Source: Synergistaceae bacterium (lineage in GTDB: Bacteria; Synergistota; Synergistia; Synergistales; Synergistaceae). Taken from it: 38,919 nt of DNA. Position 1 is the stretch's first letter. Each line of letters begins with the position of its first letter. The DNA is taken from NCBI GenBank assembly GCA_031273805.1, contig JAISRE010000015.1, positions 1 to 38,919 on the forward strand, written 5' to 3'. Below are positions 1,184 through 19,350 of the stretch, piece by piece. The notes under the pieces were generated by a model. It saw nothing but the letters and a program-made list of their open reading frames with translations. It was not told the DNA's origin and made no database searches. The translations under genes and the position numbers were made by a program.

Positions 1184-4100
1184 CTACCCCCTTGCCCCAT
1201 CGATCAGCGCGTCGATGGTGTGCTTAATTTGAATCGCCGCCTCTGGATGGTACATAATGACGAGATCAGCGCCCGCGTACAGGTAGGCCTGAGCTGAGGC
1301 GAACTCGAGGGCTGCTATGCGATCTTCCACCTTGCCCCACGCCGGGAAATCCGACTCTGGAGCTTTGGCTTCCTTGATCTTGCCGGTCTCAACGCCTGTG
1401 GAGACCACCATCGGAGCGGAGAGCATCGGCTCTCCATCGAGCGCCGTCACCCGGATACGCTCCATGACAGAGTATGTGTACTCGACTCCATAACCCAGAG
1501 CGCTGGTTGTCGGGTCGATCACTATGTTCTGCTTCGGGAAATCCATGTTAGTGAGCAGTATGACCATCTGTTTCGCTATGTTGACGTCGATCGGCGACTG
1601 AGCGACCAGTGAATGCCCATACGCCATCGCGACACCGGCTATGGTCTTGTAATTGTCCTGTTCGACCCAGTTCAGGAGCAAGTTTTCACCCGCGAACGTC
1701 TGGGCCACTGCTTTCATGACCTCATTGTGCTTGTCGTAGTGCGAGTGGCCCGTGATGATGAGCGGCACTTCGACTGCCTCCAAAATGGAGCCCACCAATT
1801 TTACAGCCTCATCGGCGGACTTGTTCCCCTTCTCGGGATGGGTTCCGACGAGCGAAACGCTCAGCAGGTCCGCGCCGTATTTATTGACGCACGCGCGCGC
1901 CATCTCCACAGGGTCGTGCAGGAGATCTTTGCCGTAGATGTCCATAAGGACAGGCGGGTACTTATCTGTAATGTTGTCAAGGACCTCCAGAGCGACAAGC
2001 GGTTTGTGCGGCATATTGCCCTCCCAGAGATGGAATGGTTTCGTCGTCTCGCCGCCTATGACGTAGGTCTTTTTGCGCGTTCCGCCCTCATCCTTGGTGT
2101 TGCCCAGCTTGACCTCCCAGATCGGAGAATCGCACTTATCATGCCTGACAGCGAAGGATTTAATTGCGCTCACTATCTTCTTGGCGGGAACAGCTGAGGG
2201 CTCTGCGGGTTTATCTGCAGCAACTGCGCCTGCGCCCGCAGCAGATGGAAGAACGGCGCCCTCCGCGCCAAGGAACTGCACGGATAGCGTGTTGATGATG
2301 CTGCCGACGACCTCCTTGATCAGTTCGCCGCGGACCTCGGCCTTGAGTTTCTCCTTGAGCTCCTCGACGCTTGCCGCGTCGACGGATATCCCCTTGACCT
2401 CCTCTTCCTCGGCCTCCCCTTCCTCAGTCACTCTGGTTGGGAGCGGCGGCAGCCCGTCGTCATCCTCGCTCTGAGCGAATTCCGCCATGTCAGTCATATC
2501 GAGCGCGGGGTGTCCGACCTTCTCCATGAACGCCCTGACCTCCTCAGCGGTGGTGGCCATCGTCTCGTCAGCTATTTTGTCAAAGAAACCATCCAGGTTC
2601 TGCTCCTTGAAGCGTTTCTCTATGTCCTCGCGCAGAGATTCCTTCAGTTCCTTCGGCATCCACACGAGACGCGCGTAGCCGCCCTCTGCGAAGAGGAACT
2701 TGCGTGAGGTCAGGAAGACCTTGCCGACTCCCATGAAGCCCGGGGTCTGGGCGCCGCCGCCGACGTTGCCGGCGAGCGCGGAGAACGACATACCGACAGG
2801 CGTATCGCCGAGGAATTCGCGGTTGACCACCATGACGCCGTTGCACTCCGGGAGATAGGCGCAGATGGCCTCGAAGCAGCCGCAGCTCGTCATAGGCCTG
2901 TCCATAATCGAGTACGCGCAGAAACCTGTCACAGTCTTATGGCTGTTGGTGTATGCGTACTCGTTGACTCCGGTCCAGATTCCCTTGACCGGATCGAGGC
3001 ACTCGCCCTTCTTGACAGGCTGGTTGCCTCCGGTCTCGTCGATCTCGTACGCGGCCTTGCCGTCCAGCCAATTATACGCGCCGCAGAGGCCGAGGCGCTC
3101 CGGTGTTATGACGCAAACGTGGTTAGGCGCAAAGGCCTGGCAGAGCAGGCAGGAGTAGAAGATATCCACCGATTCGTCCGTCATGGCCTCGACGCGCTTG
3201 TTCCTGAACGCGTAGGTTTCGCGCGCTATCTTCTGACGGCGTTCGACCTCGTCAGGGTCTGTCACGAGCGTGACCTTGACCTTGTCGACAATCGCCGGGT
3301 AATCGTCGTGGAACTTCGCGTGAATTATCTTTCCGTAATCCTTGATGCGAAGGCCTTTTTTAAAGCCGTCATTCGAGATGCGCGTCCAGACTATGTCGCG
3401 CTGGCCCATGTGCCATATGCCCTCAGCGCCGTTCACGAGATGGTGAATCTGGCGCTCCAGGATTGGCTCGAAGTCCGGCTGCATCTTGCGACCGGCGACC
3501 TCGACCCATATGCCGAGAGGCAGCACTGAGCCCGGCTCGACCTCATCGACGTCCTTGCCTATCAGCTCGAACTCGTTGTCGTTGATGTCGTCGAAGTCAA
3601 CGCTCGTCACAAACTCGAACGCAGCGGACTTGTTGCCGCCGAACTCGACGTAGGTGTCCTCCTTGCGAATGCGCTCACCCTCGAACGCCGCGCCGTACGC
3701 GACTGGTATCGGAACGTGAGTGACCTTGATTTTGCAGCCTCGTACCTCGAGCGCCTTTTCCACCATGGATTCGTAGGGAACGCTGGATACGACGTGTTCG
3801 TACGTGCAGACCCCGGTCGGGAGTATCTGCGGGATAGCTGTGTCAGCTATGACAGGAAATCCGTAGTTGATTGCGCCCGCTGCGGCGGAGTACTTCTCCT
3901 CGTCGACCTCGTCCAAAGCCAGGACGAACGCGAAAACCCTGTTCTTGTTGTACTTCAGGTTAGCGGCGTAATCTCCCGGCTTGACACCGCCGAACGACAG
4001 AGCTGTCCTGCTCGCGAACCCAAGAGCGTAGACAAGGGCCGATACATCACGACCGAACGGGACAAGGCGGGTCTCCCAACCGAGCTGAACGCCCTCTGCG

Positions 4101-4660
4101 GCAAGCTGTTCCGCGAACTGCAGGCCATTTGTGCTGCCGCCCATAAAGACGTAAAGGTTCTTCTGCTGAAGCTCCTTGGCTATCTTGACGGCGGTCGCGT
4201 TGTCAGGCGCGCGCCCCGTAATCGCAGCAAACCCAGGGGCGCTCCCGTCGACGAACTCGACCCCGCGCTCCCTCATTATGACGTCGTTCGCGGCGCCCAG
4301 CCAGATGCCGTCGACCGGGTTCGGGCCCATTATGTACTTTACGGCCTCTATAGCCTCACAGGCAAAAAGCGCGGCGGCTCCAGCGTCGAGAGTCTGGCCG
4401 AGATATGGAAGCCACTTGCTGTCGGGAACCCTTGCGGGAAGGAGATCGCGAGAGTATCTGACGATATCCTCGAGGTCCTGCAGAGTCTCCATCTTTTTTC
4501 CGGTGAATGAATATATTATAGGAAGATAATAGTTGGTGCTAGGGAACCCTATAGCCTGATCCGGTCCTTTTTCCCTAATCGCGTTCGTAACCGCCTCGTC
4601 AGCTTTCCTGACCCACTCGATGGCCCCGTTAATGGCGCTTGAACAGATAAGTTTGGACAT
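1184..4660 (-). CDS. acsB-acsD: Acetyl-CoA synthase (AcsB) fused to corrinoid iron-sulfur protein small subunit (AcsD)
   Basis: 1158 aa. N-terminal ~725 aa carry AcsB hallmarks (A-cluster region SCLLCQAFAPNHVC, GLCGAYNWLDGKAAYEI, TSCGCFEAI). After an acidic/helical linker, the C-terminal ~300 aa match AcsD (LGNTKDEGGTRKKTYVIGGE..., VVIDPTTSALGYGVEYTYSVMERIR, ADLVIMYHPEA). Confidence 0.92.
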   Translation of the reverse strand: MSKLICSSAINGAIEWVRKADEAVTNAIREKGPDQAIGFPSTNYYLPIIYSFTGKKMETLQDLEDIVRYSRDLLPARVPDSKWLPYLGQTLDAGAAALFACEAIEAVKYIMGPNPVDGIWLGAANDVIMRERGVEFVDGSAPGFAAITGRAPDNATAVKIAKELQQKNLYVFMGGSTNGLQFAEQLAAEGVQLGWETRLVPFGRDVSALVYALGFASRTALSFGGVKPGDYAANLKYNKNRVFAFVLALDEVDEEKYSAAAGAINYGFPVIADTAIPQILPTGVCTYEHVVSSVPYESMVEKALEVRGCKIKVTHVPIPVAYGAAFEGERIRKEDTYVEFGGNKSAAFEFVTSVDFDDINDNEFELIGKDVDEVEPGSVLPLGIWVEVAGRKMQPDFEPILERQIHHLVNGAEGIWHMGQRDIVWTRISNDGFKKGLRIKDYGKIIHAKFHDDYPAIVDKVKVTLVTDPDEVERRQKIARETYAFRNKRVEAMTDESVDIFYSCLLCQAFAPNHVCVITPERLGLCGAYNWLDGKAAYEIDETGGNQPVKKGECLDPVKGIWTGVNEYAYTNSHKTVTGFCAYSIMDRPMTSCGCFEAICAYLPECNGVMVVNREFLGDTPVGMSFSALAGNVGGGAQTPGFMGVGKVFLTSRKFLFAEGGYARLVWMPKELKESLREDIEKRFKEQNLDGFFDKIADETMATTAEEVRAFMEKVGHPALDMTDMAEFAQSEDDDGLPPLPTRVTEEGEAEEEEVKGISVDAASVEELKEKLKAEVRGELIKEVVGSIINTLSVQFLGAEGAVLPSAAGAGAVAADKPAEPSAVPAKKIVSAIKSFAVRHDKCDSPIWEVKLGNTKDEGGTRKKTYVIGGETTKPFHLWEGNMPHKPLVALEVLDNITDKYPPVLMDIYGKDLLHDPVEMARACVNKYGADLLSVSLVGTHPEKGNKSADEAVKLVGSILEAVEVPLIITGHSHYDKHNEVMKAVAQTFAGENLLLNWVEQDNYKTIAGVAMAYGHSLVAQSPIDVNIAKQMVILLTNMDFPKQNIVIDPTTSALGYGVEYTYSVMERIRVTALDGEPMLSAPMVVSTGVETGKIKEAKAPESDFPAWGKVEDRIAALEFASAQAYLYAGADLVIMYHPEAAIQIKHTIDALIDGARG

Positions 4661-6622
4661 TTACGCCACCTCTCTCCTGTCCTTCTGCTCCAGAAGCTTG
4701 CGCTCGTACTTCTTGTTAATGCCAAGCTTCTCACGTTTCTCATCCAGCACGGCGATAATACCTTTCGCTGCCTCGATCGGATCCTCTATAAAGTGCATTG
4801 AAGCGTTGAACATCTCTTTAACATCCTCCGTCAGGAACTTGTAAACGTTCTCACTCCCAGTGATGTGGAAGGGATGACCGATGAAGACGTCTATGCCTGT
4901 AGCCACACAGTAGCAGCTTATCGAGACCGCCTTCTCGCTCATGAGCTCGGGACAGACGCCGGCAGCGGGCAGACCCGCTATGGAATCTCCGAGCCCTCCC
5001 TCTTTGACTATTTCTGTGCAGGCCTCCAGTATCCTGGTGTTGTCCACACAACTGCCCATGTGCAGCACGGGCGGGATACCCACCGCCTCGCAGACCTCTT
5101 TCAGCCCCGGCCCCGCGTACTCGAGTGCGGTCTCCGGAGTGAGTTTTCCGTCCTTACCGGAGGCTATGGCGCAGCATCCGGTCTCGACAACCAGTACGTT
5201 GTTCTTGACGAGCTCCTTCACCAGCTCGTTGCAGTACCAATCCGTCTTAAATTTGGGGTTGTTGCAGCCGACTATACCGACGACTCCCTTTATCCTGTTC
5301 TGGATAATGGCGTCGTTCAACGGGCGGAAGGACGCGCGGAACCTGCCGCCTAACATATACTTGATCTCGCGGACGCTGAAACCAGCTATGACGGTCTCCT
5401 TCTTGTCCGGTATCTTTACGTTTTTGCTGTCGCGATTCTTGAAGTTGTCGATGGCCATCTTCACCAATTCTTTGGCGCATTCGAGAGCGCGGACCTCGCT
5501 GAATTCATAAGCTATGGCCCCGATCGTCTTCGCCATTTCCGTGGTGCCTACGATCTTCGTGTGATAGTGTTCCGCGACAGTCGGAAGCGACGGCATGATG
5601 CACTGCACGTCGACGATCATCATCTCGACAGCACCGGTCACGAGCGCCAGTTCCTGCTGCAGGAAGTTGCCGGCGATGGGTATGCCGTGACGCATAAGTA
5701 TCTCGTTCGCGGTGCAGCAGATACCGCCGACAGTGACGCCCTCAGCGCCTGCGGCCTTTGCGTACTCGATTATCTCAGGGTCCTTTATCGCTATGGCTAT
5801 CATGTCGGAGAGAGTTGGCTCATGTCCGTGGACAAGTATGTTTACGTTCTTCTCCTCAAGTATGCCGAGGTTTACCTCAGTGCGGAGCGCCCTTGGCGTT
5901 CCAAACAAAATGTCGGACGCCATCGAAGCGATGCGGGAGCCGCCCCAGCCGTTCGATATGGACTGGCGGAACGCGTGCATCAACAGGTTCTTATAGTCAT
6001 GGTCAACGCCCATGTGGGTGCGATGCATGGCTTCGACGCACATCCTGTCAATTCCCTGCGGCAGAATGCCCAGATTCGACCAAGTGGTTCTTGTCTTCTG
6101 AGGAGCGAGTGAAACAGTCTGAATCGTCTCCTCCTGAGAGGTGAAGTCACTTATAAAAATGTCGGCCAGCTCACGGAGCACGTCCTTCAACTCGCGATCT
6201 TCGGTCTCTATTCCGTACAGCTTCGCTATCTCCAGGACAGCCTGCGGGTCTTTGATCTCGTAACCCACTTCCTTGCCGTGCGCAATCTCCTTGAGGAGAA
6301 GCGCAACGTGCCTTCCGTGGTCGGAGTGCGACGCGGTCCCGCCGGTAACCTCTCTCAGGAAGTTTCTGGCGGCTATCGTGTCGGCGTCAGCGCCGCAGAC
6401 GCCTCTTGGCGACTTCGGGGTGATGCGGCACGGACCCATGTAGCATATTTTACAGCACGTGCCCTCTTTGCCGAACTTGCAATGGTTCTTCTGCGTTTCA
6501 TAGCGATCGAAACATGTTTCGATACAATCAAGACTTGCTTTTTCAAGCATCTCTACCGATGCAAAATCATCCGCCTTGTCTGAAAATACAATTTCAGTTG
6601 CCATAAATTTAATACCCCCCAA
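4661..6622 (-). CDS. cooS: Ni-dependent carbon monoxide dehydrogenase catalytic subunit
   Basis: CFDRYETQKNHCKFGKEGTCCKICYMGPCRI cluster B/D ligands, HGHEPTLSD, VGCNNPK, ETGCCAIASGK, LHMGSCVDNTR; stop codon directly abuts the downstream ATG. Could equally be named acsA. Confidence 0.96.
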   Translation of the reverse strand: MGGIKFMATEIVFSDKADDFASVEMLEKASLDCIETCFDRYETQKNHCKFGKEGTCCKICYMGPCRITPKSPRGVCGADADTIAARNFLREVTGGTASHSDHGRHVALLLKEIAHGKEVGYEIKDPQAVLEIAKLYGIETEDRELKDVLRELADIFISDFTSQEETIQTVSLAPQKTRTTWSNLGILPQGIDRMCVEAMHRTHMGVDHDYKNLLMHAFRQSISNGWGGSRIASMASDILFGTPRALRTEVNLGILEEKNVNILVHGHEPTLSDMIAIAIKDPEIIEYAKAAGAEGVTVGGICCTANEILMRHGIPIAGNFLQQELALVTGAVEMMIVDVQCIMPSLPTVAEHYHTKIVGTTEMAKTIGAIAYEFSEVRALECAKELVKMAIDNFKNRDSKNVKIPDKKETVIAGFSVREIKYMLGGRFRASFRPLNDAIIQNRIKGVVGIVGCNNPKFKTDWYCNELVKELVKNNVLVVETGCCAIASGKDGKLTPETALEYAGPGLKEVCEAVGIPPVLHMGSCVDNTRILEACTEIVKEGGLGDSIAGLPAAGVCPELMSEKAVSISCYCVATGIDVFIGHPFHITGSENVYKFLTEDVKEMFNASMHFIEDPIEAAKGIIAVLDEKREKLGINKKYERKLLEQKDRREVA

Positions 6623-6664: not shown

Positions 6665-7417
6665 TTATTTGATAACTTCCGATATGAGCTCCAAGATCGT
6701 TCTGTAGATTGGGTTGGAACCGGATACTTCCCAAACTGGTCTTGACTCCTCGGCCAGCCGGGCAATCTCTTCGTCGTATGGCAGCGCTAATATTTTTTGC
6801 GCTCCCGTGCTGTTTTGAACCCGCACGGCCGATTCAGGCAGTTCACCCCCTCGTGTGCGATTTACAAGCAAAATCAGCTTTCTGAATCCAACCCCCATCT
6901 CGCGCACGAGGCTATATAGCCGCTCCAGAGTGTTCATACCGGCGTTGGACGCGTCAGAGACCAACACCAGCACGTCCACCGACTGGACTATCCTGCGGGA
7001 GAGGTTTTCAAGCCCTGCCTCGTTATCCAGCACAACATAGGGATACTGATCTGAAAGCTCTTTGATGGCCATTTTTAGGACATTGTTCGCGTAACAGTAA
7101 CATCCGGGACCTTCCGGTCTTCCCATCGATATCATGTCAAAACCGCTGCTCTCAACAAGGCCCTGCGCAATCTTCATCCTGAGCAGTTCCTGTTTGGATA
7201 TTTTTTGAGCCTCTGCCTCGTCGCGGACTGTTTCACGCGCCGAGCCTATGGTGAAATGAATTTTTACTCCAAGCATATCGGCAAGACAGCTGTTAGGATC
7301 GGCATCAATTGCCAGAACCGGCGTCTTCCCAAGCTCCGTGAGGCTGCGGATAAACAGACTGGCGAGCGTGGTTTTTCCAACGCCGCCCTTTCCAGATAAA
7401 GCGAATAGACAGCTCAT
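6665..7417 (-). CDS. CooC/AcsF-type nickel-insertion ATPase (paralog 2)
   Basis: MSCLFALSGKGGVGKTTLASL (deviant Walker A), DADPNSCLADMLG, CYCYANN CxC motif, DNEAGLENLSRR. Start placed at 7417 (ATGA overlap with the upstream paralog stop) rather than the track start at 7486. Confidence 0.88.
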   Translation of the reverse strand: MSCLFALSGKGGVGKTTLASLFIRSLTELGKTPVLAIDADPNSCLADMLGVKIHFTIGSARETVRDEAEAQKISKQELLRMKIAQGLVESSGFDMISMGRPEGPGCYCYANNVLKMAIKELSDQYPYVVLDNEAGLENLSRRIVQSVDVLVLVSDASNAGMNTLERLYSLVREMGVGFRKLILLVNRTRGGELPESAVRVQNSTGAQKILALPYDEEIARLAEESRPVWEVSGSNPIYRTILELISEVIK

Positions 7418-8190
7418 GTCTCCAACCTCTTTATTATTTCGGCGTACCCGCCGCGAGTTTCGTCGTCCTGAACGTCGTACGGACATACCCCGTCCCGGTC
7501 GGCGTTTTTGAGAACGTCTGTATATGGCAGGAACGCAACTATCTCCCTGTTCGGCAATGCCTCCCTTACAAAGGCTTTGTCGTCCTCTCCGGTAATTTTG
7601 TTTGCGACAAACAAAACCCTTTTGATTCTGATCTCCTTGGACATCCGCTCAACCAGCAGCGCGCAATCGATCGATCGCTGCCCTGGCTCCACCACTACGA
7701 GCATCGCGTCGACGCCCTGGGACGTAGCGCGCCCGAGGTGCTCTATGCCGGCCTCCATATCCATAATCAGCGTATCCCCTTTGAAGAGGATCAGATCATT
7801 GACCAGCGCGCGTATAAACGTGTTTTCCGGGCAGGCGCAGCCGCTGCCTCCAGCCTTTACAGCGCCCAATACAAGCAGAGACACTCCCCTGTACTTGTAG
7901 GCATAGTGGTCCGCTATATCGGATACTTCCGGATTCAGCCTGAACACCTGCCCGTACTGTCCAACCTTCGCGCCTGTGCGCTCCTCGATCAAATCTATCT
8001 GCTGGGAAATGGTGACGATGCGCTGCTGTTCGCGATGCGAAATCCCAAGAGAAGACGCCAGATTGGCATCCGGGTCGGCGTCGAGGGCCAGAACTCTGTC
8101 GCCGCGCTCTGCCTTCATCAACGCAATTATGGATGCTATCGTGGATTTCCCGACTCCGCCTTTTCCAGAAACAGCTATTTTCAACCGCAT
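7414..8190 (-). CDS. CooC/AcsF-type nickel-insertion ATPase (paralog 1)
   Basis: MRLKIAVSGKGGVGKSTIAS, DADPDANLASSLG, CACPEN CxC motif, DMEAGIEHLGRATSQGVDAMLVVVEPG. Confidence 0.9.
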   Translation of the reverse strand: MRLKIAVSGKGGVGKSTIASIIALMKAERGDRVLALDADPDANLASSLGISHREQQRIVTISQQIDLIEERTGAKVGQYGQVFRLNPEVSDIADHYAYKYRGVSLLVLGAVKAGGSGCACPENTFIRALVNDLILFKGDTLIMDMEAGIEHLGRATSQGVDAMLVVVEPGQRSIDCALLVERMSKEIRIKRVLFVANKITGEDDKAFVREALPNREIVAFLPYTDVLKNADRDGVCPYDVQDDETRGGYAEIIKRLET

Positions 8191-8490: not shown

Positions 8491-9558
8491 TCAGTACCCG
8501 TACTTGGACTTCATCCTCTTGGTGATCGCGTCAAGCGTCTCGAATACCTTGTCGGCCTCAGCGATCGAGAGAGAACCGGTTCCGCAGGACGGGGTGAGCA
8601 CGGCCTGCTCGGTGATGACGCTCTTATCAAGCCCGGTCACTCCAGACAGCTTATCCATATTTCCCTCCAGGATTTCCTCAAGAGATTCTACAGACTCCTC
8701 CATGATCTTATTGGACGTGGGCACTATCCCCCACGCCAGGCATCTGCCCTTCTCAAGATGAGATCTCATATCATTTCCATACAATGAGACCGTTTCGCCG
8801 AATCCATACGCGTCAAAGTTGACCATGTCAACTCCGGCGTCGGTCAATATGCTCCACTCCGTGTTGCCGCAGCAATGGATCCCGGCGTACCCTCCGTCGG
8901 CGTGCACCGCGTCTATGACCTCGCTGAGATGTGAGACGACGTCGTCGCGCTGAACAGAAACATAGGTTGAGCTGCCAAAAGCGGAGAGAATTGGTTCGTC
9001 GATGAAGCAGATGATGTTTTCAGCGTACTCCTTGAATTTTTGTATCTGCCAGCGGCACTTCATCGCGATCGCCTTGATTATGACGTCGCGAAATTCCTCG
9101 TTGTAATAGATTGCACGCTTGTTCTCGTCGGTTATGGTGAGGGCGAAGCTGCACGGACCGGTGACCTGCACCTTGAGCCAGGGCAATTTTTTACCGTCGG
9201 CCTTGAGTTTTCTGTCAAGCGCGAAGAGCCCCTTCGAGAACTCTTCGGTTATCGCCATCGAGGAGCAGTCCCCGTTCCCCTCATCAGGATCCATCGCGGT
9301 CGTGTACGTATCGTAAAACGTCGCGAAATCCTCGGAATAATCCTTGGATGTGTCAAAAAACATGCGACCCTTGGCCTCGTCGATCACGACACAGGGTATT
9401 CCCTCGCTGTACTGAATCTCCATCTGCTCCCTCAGGCCAAAAAATGGAAGTTGGGGCCAGATAGGAGCGTTCTGAGACGCGAGTGCCACATCGACCGCGT
9501 GCGCCGGATTGTCATACGGCATACTGCCTATTGCAGTGCTTAAAAATTTGGGCTTCAT
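8491..9558 (-). CDS. MetE C-terminal/UROD-like zinc methyltransferase (stand-alone, no folate or corrinoid domain)
   Basis: MKPKFLSTAIGSMPYDNP..., VTGPCSFALTI, FIDEPILSAFG, putative Zn ligands GIHCCGNT...TPSCGTGSL. Confidence 0.8.
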   Translation of the reverse strand: MKPKFLSTAIGSMPYDNPAHAVDVALASQNAPIWPQLPFFGLREQMEIQYSEGIPCVVIDEAKGRMFFDTSKDYSEDFATFYDTYTTAMDPDEGNGDCSSMAITEEFSKGLFALDRKLKADGKKLPWLKVQVTGPCSFALTITDENKRAIYYNEEFRDVIIKAIAMKCRWQIQKFKEYAENIICFIDEPILSAFGSSTYVSVQRDDVVSHLSEVIDAVHADGGYAGIHCCGNTEWSILTDAGVDMVNFDAYGFGETVSLYGNDMRSHLEKGRCLAWGIVPTSNKIMEESVESLEEILEGNMDKLSGVTGLDKSVITEQAVLTPSCGTGSLSIAEADKVFETLDAITKRMKSKYGY

Positions 9559-9616: not shown

Positions 9617-10516
9617 CTACGCCGCCTTTTTTTTGTTATACTCGTTGACAACTTTCTTAATTGCCGCAATATGTGCGGGCGTCGTTCCGCAGCATCCGCC
9701 TATGATGTTCGCTCCGGCCTTAATGAGAGTGTCCACCTGCGCCGCCATCATCTCCGGGGTCTCCGGGAACACGTCCTTGCCGTCGATGTTCTGCGGAAGC
9801 CCAGCGTTCGCGTGCACCAGGATTAAAGCGTCGGGATATGCCGTCTTCATCTCCTGCACGATCTCTATCATTCTTTCGATTCCGTTGCCGCAGTTCGTTC
9901 CAACGATATCTGACCCTGCGTCAAGAGCCGCCTTGACTGAGTCGACCGGTGAAAGGCCCATCATCGTTCTGTAAGTTCCCTGAATGGTTTTATCGAATGT
10001 GAAGGTGGTGATAATCTCCAGTTTCGTGTTTTCCTTTGTCGCCTTGATAGCGCAACAGGCCTCCTCGGCGTCGCTCATAGTCTCGATGCACACAGCATCC
10101 GCTCCGCCCTTTTCCAGCGCTATCGCCTGTACCTTAAACGCCTCGTAAAGCTCCTCCTCGGTGACTTCCTCCGTGACCAGCATCTTGCCGGTTGGGCCGA
10201 TCGACGCGATGACGAATTTATCCCCCGCGCCCTTCCTGGACGCGCGAGCCGCAAATTCGTTGATCTCCGCCGCTCTATCCTGCAAACCGAAATGCTCCAG
10301 CTTGTAATAACTTGCCCCAAAGCTGTTTGCCTCAACCATATCCGCCCCGGCGTCCGCATAACTCTTCGCTATGTCCACTACTTCGTCAAAACGATTGACA
10401 GACCACACATCCGGGCATTCTCCAGCTTTCATGCCCTTGTCGTAGAGGAATGTCCCCCAAGCGCCATCTGAAACCAATACCTTACCTGTCCTTAGCACAT
10501 CAACTATTTTACCCAT
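9617..10516 (-). CDS. Homocysteine S-methyltransferase domain protein (MetH N-terminal-like, stand-alone)
   Basis: SDGAWGTFLYDKG, EANSFGAS, ETMSDAEEACCAIKA, GTNCGNG, GGCCGTTPAHI Zn-binding motifs of the S-methyl_trans family. Confidence 0.88.
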   Translation of the reverse strand: MGKIVDVLRTGKVLVSDGAWGTFLYDKGMKAGECPDVWSVNRFDEVVDIAKSYADAGADMVEANSFGASYYKLEHFGLQDRAAEINEFAARASRKGAGDKFVIASIGPTGKMLVTEEVTEEELYEAFKVQAIALEKGGADAVCIETMSDAEEACCAIKATKENTKLEIITTFTFDKTIQGTYRTMMGLSPVDSVKAALDAGSDIVGTNCGNGIERMIEIVQEMKTAYPDALILVHANAGLPQNIDGKDVFPETPEMMAAQVDTLIKAGANIIGGCCGTTPAHIAAIKKVVNEYNKKKAA

Positions 10517-10822: not shown

Positions 10823-10881
10823 CACTACTATAAAAGGGTGTAAAATGTTCATAGCAGATATTTGACGAGGGAGGATAAAAC

Positions 10882-11488
10882 GATGGGCAAGGGACATGAG
10901 CAGATCTACTCCATGATTCTGCCAAAGCTTGCGGAATGCGACATTGTCCAAAACGGGCTTCGCCTTGGGGCGACACCCGTCGAGAATGGGGTGCGGATAA
11001 CATTTCTCGGCCGTGACTATGTAATTACGAGTGACGGCGTCAACCCGGAGGACGGTCTCCCCGCCGATGTGAATCACCGCAGCCTCCTGGTCTATTACAT
11101 CACCTCGAACGGTACGGGGGACTTTACATACGACTTTGCTCTGCTCGGACGGCTGACCGGCATGATCGACGGGCAGAACAACCTGGCAAACGGCATTATG
11201 AACGATCCGCTGATCCGGGAGTTCGGCGATAATTATGACAAGTTCGTCACGGCGATAACCAGTCTGGGCGGCACAGAGGTTCCGGCGTCAGGTTCGGGCA
11301 AGCACGTATGGCAGCTGCTGGTGCTTCCTAAAATTTTATCTCAAATCGTATTTTACGAGGCGGACGATGAATTTCCTGCGGACATACAGATCATGTTCGA
11401 CAGAACCGCGCCCAGATTTTTGGATTTTGAATGTCTGGCCGTCATGACCGGGGCAGTGATTAATGAACTTATCAAGCGCGGGAAATAG
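10882..11488 (+). CDS. DUF3786-like protein
   Basis: MGKGHEQIYSMILPKLAECDIVQNGLRLGATPVENGVRITFLGRDYVI..., preceded by gagggaggataaaacg. The track gives ORF start 10862; ATG GGC AAG GGA is taken here as the likely start. Family assignment by recall. Confidence 0.6.
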
Positions 11489-17514: not shown

Positions 17515-18723
17515 TCATTCCCCATCCCAGACTGAGGCTGCCGACACGGGGCCTATACGAAGAACCGAATATAGCGACGCCAGCGGCCCTACGAGAAACG
17601 ACATGAAAAACCCGGCGGCTATGAGCAGAGCCGCAGTACCTGCACGGGGCTGTATGTAGGGCAGAATCATGCCCAGATCGATGAGAGCGCGGAAGGGCAG
17701 TATCAGCAGGCAGAAAGCAAACACTCCCGCCAGGGCGCCAAACAGGCTGACGAGGGCAGCTTCGAGCAGGACGAAACGCGCTATCCACCCGACCGTCGCA
17801 CCCAGAACTCTATAAATCCTGAACTCTCCCTTGCGTTCATTTAATATGACGGTAAAGAGGACAGTCAGGACACCCACTGCCAACAGCCACAATATCGCAG
17901 TCAACGTGAAAATGACCGACATCAGCAAATTCAGATTCCTGGACAGCTCTCCTATGAAATCCTGCGGACGGATAACGTCCACTCCGGACAATCGCAGGGC
18001 ATCGTGAATCTCCCGCGTGAAAGCGACGGGATCGAGTCCCTCGTCGATATCGGCCGTTATGATCGACGCCGCACGCTCCACGTCCCGGACGTCTTCGCCG
18101 GTATAATAAAAGTACTCCTTTAAAGCTGCCCGCGCGGTCTCCATGTTGAAGAACACAGACGTATCAAACCCCATTCCGGTTTTCTCGAGACGAGCGACGA
18201 CGCGGTACTCGCTGCTGAAGAACATGAGTTTGTCTCCTGCTGTGGCGTCGATCTGACTGCCCACTATCACCTCTCCGAAGGCAAGGATCCCCGGAACTTC
18301 GCCGAGGAGCCAGGGAGCTATTACAAAGTCTGTGTTCGGCTCATATCCTATGAGCTGCACAGGGAATGAACAGTGACTGGAATCCATGGTCGCTATGAAC
18401 AGCTGAGGCGACGTCCGCGAAAACCCCTTTACGCCCGATATCTTGTCCAGAGCCTCCATATCGAGGTAGAACGCGCTTGGTTCTCCTCTCAGCAACACGC
18501 CCTCTGCGCTGTGTTGGTAGCCTATCGGCGCGAGTATTAGATCCGCGCCGAGGCGATCAGACATACTGCTCATTCCCTTTCGCAAACTGAACGTCAAGAG
18601 CGATCCGGTTATCAGAACGAACGACAGCAGGGCTACAAAACTCGCGATGCAGAAGCTGCGAAAGGGCCTGCGCCTTAAATTTTGCAAGGATATATTAAAT
18701 GCGTTCAGCCTGCGCAATCGCAT
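17515..18723 (-). CDS. FtsX-like ABC transporter permease (LolE/MacB type)
   Basis: 402 aa with N-terminal TM, large extracytoplasmic loop and three C-terminal TMs; NERKGEFRIYRVLGAT motif. Confidence 0.85.
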   Translation of the reverse strand: MRLRRLNAFNISLQNLRRRPFRSFCIASFVALLSFVLITGSLLTFSLRKGMSSMSDRLGADLILAPIGYQHSAEGVLLRGEPSAFYLDMEALDKISGVKGFSRTSPQLFIATMDSSHCSFPVQLIGYEPNTDFVIAPWLLGEVPGILAFGEVIVGSQIDATAGDKLMFFSSEYRVVARLEKTGMGFDTSVFFNMETARAALKEYFYYTGEDVRDVERAASIITADIDEGLDPVAFTREIHDALRLSGVDVIRPQDFIGELSRNLNLLMSVIFTLTAILWLLAVGVLTVLFTVILNERKGEFRIYRVLGATVGWIARFVLLEAALVSLFGALAGVFAFCLLILPFRALIDLGMILPYIQPRAGTAALLIAAGFFMSFLVGPLASLYSVLRIGPVSAASVWDGE

Positions 18724-19162
18724 TGCCTCTTGTGTCTCTTCTATACTTTCTGATCAATCTGATAGTGTTTACAGAAGCCGCAAGGGTCACCAGGAGACTG
18801 ATAACGTTAAGGGATGGAAGCGTGATGAGGCGGCAGTCCATATTATGATGCTCGCACATCCCAATCAATATGTTCGGAATCAGAAAAGCCAGAGTGCCGT
18901 TGAAGAGGATCGACAGGCTGAGCCCCGCCAGCATGGGAACTGCGCTCGACAGGATATACGCCGCGCCCAGCAGGGCGATCACAATGCCTATCCCCAGCTC
19001 GGCCCGCGCCGACCATAAGCAGTTTGTCACGTGACCGTGGTTTTGTTCACAGATTTTAAAAATATACTTGGGCCCAACCGCTATCAGAATCCCAAACACA
19101 AGGAAGAACAAACCCGCAGCAATATGTTTTATCCGTCCGCTCATCAACAAATTACCTCCCAA
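18695..19162 (-). CDS. DUF4418-like integral membrane protein
   Basis: FLVFGILIAVGPKYIFKICEQNHG....CLWSARAELGIGIVIALLGAAYIL; overlaps the FtsX-like gene. Confidence 0.65.
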   Translation of the reverse strand: MGGNLLMSGRIKHIAAGLFFLVFGILIAVGPKYIFKICEQNHGHVTNCLWSARAELGIGIVIALLGAAYILSSAVPMLAGLSLSILFNGTLAFLIPNILIGMCEHHNMDCRLITLPSLNVISLLVTLAASVNTIRLIRKYRRDTRGNAIAQAERI

Positions 19163-19207
19163 CTAAACTATGAGTGTACTGCTACCCTCTCTCTTGATTG
19201 CCTATAT

Positions 19208-19219
19208 AACATATATGTT
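19208..19219. promoter_or_regulatory. Perfect 12-bp palindrome in divergent intergenic region
   Basis: aacatatatgtt. Confidence 0.3.
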
Positions 19220-19350
19220 TAGTAGCCTTTTATCACAAAAAATATATGTTGTCAAGAAATCCTGATGTCTATCAAAGAACATAAATATTTTCAGAGATAA
19301 TCTAAATAAATTCTATAGGAATACTAGGAATTATGTGTGTATAATACCCT

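Follow-up and report, generated by a model that had tools for sequence, protein, structure and literature searches.

Acetyl-CoA synthase and the CFeSP small subunit encoded as one polypeptide in a Synergistaceae bacterium and, as a scattered minority form, in other bacterial phyla

Few structural steps of the Wood-Ljungdahl pathway are as poorly understood as methyl transfer from the corrinoid protein CFeSP to acetyl-CoA synthase (ACS), in which the partners meet only briefly. In the acetogenic CODH/ACS and CFeSP systems of Moorella thermoacetica, Clostridium autoethanogenum, and Carboxydothermus hydrogenoformans, ACS (AcsB) and the CFeSP small subunit (AcsD) are separate polypeptides, as the original prediction for the locus described here had correctly stated for characterized acetogens. 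In methanogenic archaea, ACS and CFeSP are stably associated in one large complex (ACDS), and ACS carries an unresolved, flexible C-terminal extension that is suspected to aid its swing (PMC11474084). A further comparison comes from Dehalococcoides, in which AcsB, AcsC, and AcsD are named as separate proteins, CODH is absent, AcsE and MetF are missing, and core-MetE has been proposed to accept methyl groups from CFeSP (PMC7005905).

The locus that we analyzed lies in a window (the whole stretch of Synergistaceae DNA under study) of 38,919 nucleotides. The system to which it belongs has AcsA, AcsB, AcsC, AcsD, RACo, and CooC in common with the acetogenic one, but here AcsB and AcsD are one chain, a linker replaces the free AcsB C terminus, and acsE is no part of the operon. 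The fusion gene occupies positions 1184 to 4660 of the minus strand, where 1158 codons are read without interruption (the plus-strand reading contains stops), and Pfam and NF models confirmed the original prediction of AcsB followed by AcsD in a single 1158-residue open reading frame, with both families above curated cut-offs. The separate AcsB and AcsD polypeptides of the canonical bacterial CODH/ACS-CFeSP arrangement are therefore lacking at this locus.

The AcsB part (residues 1 to 725; positions 2486 to 4660) has all three domains of acetogenic AcsB, with Pfam matches to CODH_A_N (residues 22 to 110, the N-terminal CODH-binding domain), CdhC (318 to 472), and ACS_CODH_B_C (483 to 725), and it scores 1038.6 bits against the NF040764 (AcsB) equivalog model over residues 10 to 725 (cut-off, 800). 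Its A-cluster cysteines, C504, C507, C516, C526, C593, and C595, are invariant in 68 aligned fusions and are shared with acetogenic AcsB; the six in Moorella are residues 506, 509, 518, 528, 595, and 597. The AcsD part (residues 846 to 1158; positions 1187 to 2125) matches CdhD (849 to 1088) and NF003376 (350 bits; cut-off, 280), and the fusion scores under the cut-offs of two other AcsD/CdhD models, NF040759 and TIGR00381. A fold search placed the AcsB part on solved ACS structures (44 to 48% identity) and the AcsD part on solved CFeSP small subunits (32 to 44% identity), with TM scores of 0.94 to 0.95 to 4djd_D and 2h9a_B. In the single-chain AlphaFold2 model (mean pLDDT, 75; pTM, 0.53), the enzyme domains are mostly confident and the linker is of low confidence.

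A search for AcsB-AcsD fusions across genomes, which had been suggested along with the original prediction, revealed a widespread minority form, with both domains in a single frame (read stop to stop) in 82 of 88 related loci. Among 61 genomes searched, the window's own included, six carry the fusion, all of them in the window's genus or in one other Synergistaceae genus, and the proteins of the five relatives are 83 to 89% identical to that of the window. A scan limited to a single genome for each species, which was steered by the window protein, is biased to near relatives, and gives no frequency, yielded 80 further loci. Frequency was instead estimated from evenly drawn phylum samples, by setting genomes with any CODH/ACS match against those with the fusion. 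The fusion was found in 1 of 137 matching genomes in the sample around a Syntrophaceae seed, 1 of 95 around a Clostridia seed, and 1 of 24 around a seed from the Planctomycetes group, the one being the seed itself in each case, and in 2 of 3 and 3 of 18 (one fragmented at contig ends) around Lentisphaerae and Spirochaetota seeds, respectively. These counts make the fusion a scattered minority architecture.

Its hosts span more than a dozen phyla and are not limited to the termite-gut Synergistaceae genus; by record titles they include Synergistota, Bacillota, Spirochaetota, Lentisphaerota, Verrucomicrobiota, and Planctomycetota, as well as Actinomycetota, Acidobacteriota, Fibrobacterota, Ignavibacteriota, and others. 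The fusion is an old, widespread alternative architecture rather than a local one. No description of it was found in the open-access literature searched; it may have been noted elsewhere, or may be filed unremarked in databases under the name of AcsB or AcsD. Gene counts that demand a separate acsD may score fusion genomes as incomplete. AcsB frames longer than 1000 residues in two of the phylum samples were rejected as further candidates, the main cases fetched being ordinary unfused AcsB. Separately, some AcsD proteins of the Desulfobacterota-type sample (L112, L116, L119, and L123) lie in frames with about 180 additional N-terminal residues, which resemble a TPR repeat followed by a charged linker.

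FastTree analysis of 176 AcsB sequences (82 fused, 94 unfused) and 125 AcsD sequences (77 fused) placed all 82 fused AcsB in one clade containing none of the 94 unfused ones (support, 0.993) and all 77 fused AcsD in one clade without an unfused member (support, 0.945). Because each half forms one clade, a single fusion together with operon transfer is the simplest history. Judged from the sequences, the fusion apparently had a single origin, in which AcsB lost its free C terminus, and the operon spread between phyla, which would make the fusion a clean molecular marker by which to follow movement of the Wood-Ljungdahl pathway from one phylum to another. Hosts of different phyla interleave within the fused clade. 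The window's Synergistaceae group, for instance, is sister to a single-cell genome of a cockroach-gut Christensenellaceae (support, 100), and this pair nests among Bacillota, Treponema, and Actinomycetota, many of which, to judge from isolate names, came from termite guts; such interleaving suggests transfer between gut bacteria. The tree that gave these host groupings included only two unfused rows, and the single origin rests on the FastTree analysis. The Christensenellaceae cell is reported to transcribe CODH together with a gene for acetyl-CoA decarbonylase/synthase that is assigned to K00194, the number used for AcsD/CdhD (PMC10266427), which is a hint, and the sole sign, of expression for the fusion.

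The linker comprises residues 726 to 845 (positions 2126 to 2485), and the acidic stretch, helix, and Ala/Pro segment that had been noticed between the domains are all present there as quoted. It is about 120 residues long in the window protein and 69 to 219 residues long (median, 128) in the 68 aligned fusions. AlphaFold2 gave pLDDT values mostly of 26 to 50 at residues 732 to 822, which predicts disorder, along with two predicted helices at residues 763 to 775 and 779 to 796. A conserved helix motif at residues 781 to 798 (positions 2267 to 2320) has the consensus TKEIVxDIIxTLSxKFLG, a core that is kept in 62 of the 68 fusions, and information per alignment column rises from about 1.0 bit in the outer parts of the linker to about 2.0 in the helix and more than 3 in the enzyme domains. 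Since the other six fusions have no clear motif and some linkers are only about 70 residues long, the helix is not indispensable.

A comparable helix is absent from the C-terminal tails of unfused AcsB and the N termini of unfused AcsD that were sampled, and so the helix goes with the fusion. In nearly all unfused AcsB proteins, six residues or fewer follow the domain, and the usual ending is (D/E)P(L/I)(M/F) or something close to it, a sequence pattern which suggests that the free C terminus is under constraint. Unfused AcsB proteins of different phyla (e.g., L100, L127, and L199) stop at nearly the same position. As to the source of the linker, a remnant of the archaeal CdhD N terminus was rejected, as the match to NF003375 vanished once the AcsD residues were omitted and was thus AcsD signal; comparison of the linker with Pfam returned nothing but matches far under cut-offs, and no kinship to archaeal families was found by sequence. 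The helix is most likely a docking element that fits onto a partner surface, whether of ACS, CODH, or AcsC.

We infer that the fusion is best explained as a tether between the CFeSP small subunit and ACS. A long, flexible tether would join the two in one polypeptide, the AcsD part would be bound by AcsC as in ordinary CFeSP, and the methyl-carrying corrinoid would be held permanently near the A-cluster, with ACS still free to swing between CODH and CFeSP despite the tether. Within the complex, the tether helix would dock on a surface of ACS, CODH, or AcsC, and ACS must open for the CFeSP corrinoid to reach the A-cluster. In a modeled ACS-CFeSP complex, the CFeSP beta subunit touches the N-terminal domain of ACS and the alpha subunit delivers the corrinoid (PMC12289521); we take that beta subunit to correspond to the AcsD part. 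Like methanogenic ACDS, with its flexible ACS extension, the fusion would keep ACS and CFeSP together, and a tether from the ACS C terminus to AcsD would do covalently what the archaeal complex does non-covalently; archaeal ACS, however, is without the N-terminal A1 domain that is present here. The tether could raise the local concentration and, along with helix docking, might bring a kinetic benefit.

The original prediction also held that the fusion fixes stoichiometry. This stands for AcsB and AcsD, which are set at 1:1 because they are one polypeptide, but a fixed ratio to CODH does not follow. As a natural fusion that would hold ACS and CFeSP together at a fixed ratio, the protein is a ready subject for cryo-electron microscopy, kinetics, and gas fermentation. 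Overall, a covalent tether holding methyl-carrying CFeSP beside ACS, in a fusion of single origin with a docking helix, is the best explanation, and we consider it reasonably probable.

The disorder and variable sequence of the linker would also leave it exposed to proteases, and the fusion might be made whole and then cut there, which would undo the tether and yield ordinary, separate AcsB and AcsD with equal amounts as the only gain. We regard such cleavage as improbable, because neither a linker helix conserved across phyla nor retention of the fusion throughout its clade would be expected if the link were dispensable. The helix might, alternatively, serve mainly to oligomerize several CODH/ACS/CFeSP units, achieving by other means what archaeal ACDS achieves and leaving tethering secondary. 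Its conserved hydrophobic positions (784, 785, 788, 789, 792, and 796) would suit this role, as would the precedent of the 2.2-MDa archaeal assembly (PMC11474084), but the helix stretch has no significant hydrophobic moment (p about 0.10), and we consider a primarily oligomerizing helix doubtful.

We give little credence to the idea that translation also starts inside the linker and yields a separate AcsD. An in-frame start with a ribosome-binding site occurs in the linker of 8 of 68 fusions, compared with 25 of 68 for AcsD windows of the same size, a methionine lies between the helix and AcsD in just 7 of 68, and a ribosome-binding site precedes the real fusion start in 63 of 68; these counts make a separately initiated AcsD unlikely. 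That acsB and acsD are really neighboring genes whose intervening stop and start were lost through an assembly or sequencing artifact in this draft metagenome-assembled genome (MAG) of 172 contigs has a negligible chance of being right, because the same open fusion, with its conserved linker element, recurs across phyla in dozens of assemblies made independently, among them a single-cell genome, which excludes chance or assembly error, and because the few apparent splits have been explained, namely, L079 by a frameshift and L088 by a gap of Ns.

Neither of these two loci is accepted as a natural split, and the six of the 88 loci without a single-frame fusion are made up of them, two truncated contigs, and two loci that represent the canonical unfused cluster of one related Synergistaceae MAG (G003). 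The window's own genome (86.7% complete) gave a single match, with no second acsB or acsD, which bears out the earlier observation that acsC has no separate acsD partner; ten further genomes, chosen from various groups, likewise have no AcsB or AcsD other than the fusion. G003 has the fused operon plus the canonical CODH/ACS cluster with acsE (L202, on contig C82, and L203); the AcsB of this second cluster is 40% identical, and since the MAG is 7% contaminated, the cluster may be foreign.

The fusion belongs to an evident operon on the minus strand, transcribed in the order homocysteine methyltransferase, core-MetE, two CooC genes, acsA, fusion, and acsC. First come a homocysteine S-methyltransferase of the MetH N-terminal type (9617 to 10516; PF02574, 220.7 bits) and a core-MetE-like methionine synthase (8491 to 9558; NF002119, 38.8 bits, below the cut-off of 258). 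Two CooC-type P-loop ATPases follow, which we call cooC2 (7414 to 8190; present in 40 of the 43 fused loci whose upstream sequence is long enough) and cooC1 (6665 to 7486; conserved in position in fused loci), and then acsA/cooS, coding for CO dehydrogenase (4661 to 6622; TIGR01702, 637 bits). The acsA stop immediately precedes the ATG of the fusion, and 6 bases past the fusion stop begins acsC, the gene for the CFeSP large subunit (2 to 1177; NF003195, 376 bits, with an FeS domain), which is cut by the contig end. Across loci, the typical fused operon has core-MetE, two CooC genes, and RACo and is without acsE; in most fused loci that extend far enough, RACo rather than acsE follows acsC.

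This setting bears on methyl metabolism. Core-MetE was found in 38 of the same 43 fused loci (e.g., L010, L016, and L084) and in none of the 16 unfused loci fetched, whose flanks are shorter than those of the fused loci, and a homocysteine methyltransferase lies upstream of the CODH/ACS genes in 19 of the 43, across phyla. Such upstream genes bear on the idea that CFeSP supplies methionine synthesis. No acsE is present in the fused loci read, and a search of the window's own genome, a draft in which the contig breaks off within acsC, returned no AcsE match. Moreover, neither AcsE nor MTHFR was found in five draft genomes (G000, the window's own, and four fusion-bearing relatives, G002, G005, G008, and G031), two of which are 95 to 96% complete; the MTHFR model matched in 11 of 14 control genomes, and four of the five drafts have formate-THF ligase.

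Core-MetE, together with the failure to find AcsE and MTHFR, is a likeness of the window's genus to Dehalococcoides, but here CODH is in the operon. From these gene absences, we favor, at about even odds, acetyl-CoA/methionine methyl exchange, with CODH handling CO, over ordinary acetogenesis in the window's genus; the methyl group would then pass between acetyl-CoA and homocysteine via core-MetE and the homocysteine methyltransferase, and not from methyl-tetrahydrofolate via AcsE. In other phyla, most hosts of the fusion do have MTHFR, and a protein resembling MetH or AcsE is frequent, and so the ordinary pathway is possible there. Only tentatively do we propose a third CODH/ACS organization, next to the free CFeSP of acetogens and the non-covalent megacomplex of methanogens, in which a transfer-prone operon of single origin, a covalently tethered CFeSP, a dedicated docking helix, and a core-MetE that feeds the acetyl-CoA methyl group to methionine would be combined.

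Other genes border fused operons. A DUF3786 protein adjoins the operon in the window (10862 to 11488, plus strand), and DUF3786-like proteins lie 3' of RACo in fused loci of Actinomycetota, namely, in L023 (13284 to 13928) and, as two in tandem, in L025 (13192 to 14555). In a close relative (L208), an AraC-family regulator with a PocR sensory domain is encoded after RACo, downstream of the fused operon (17929 to 19251, plus strand).
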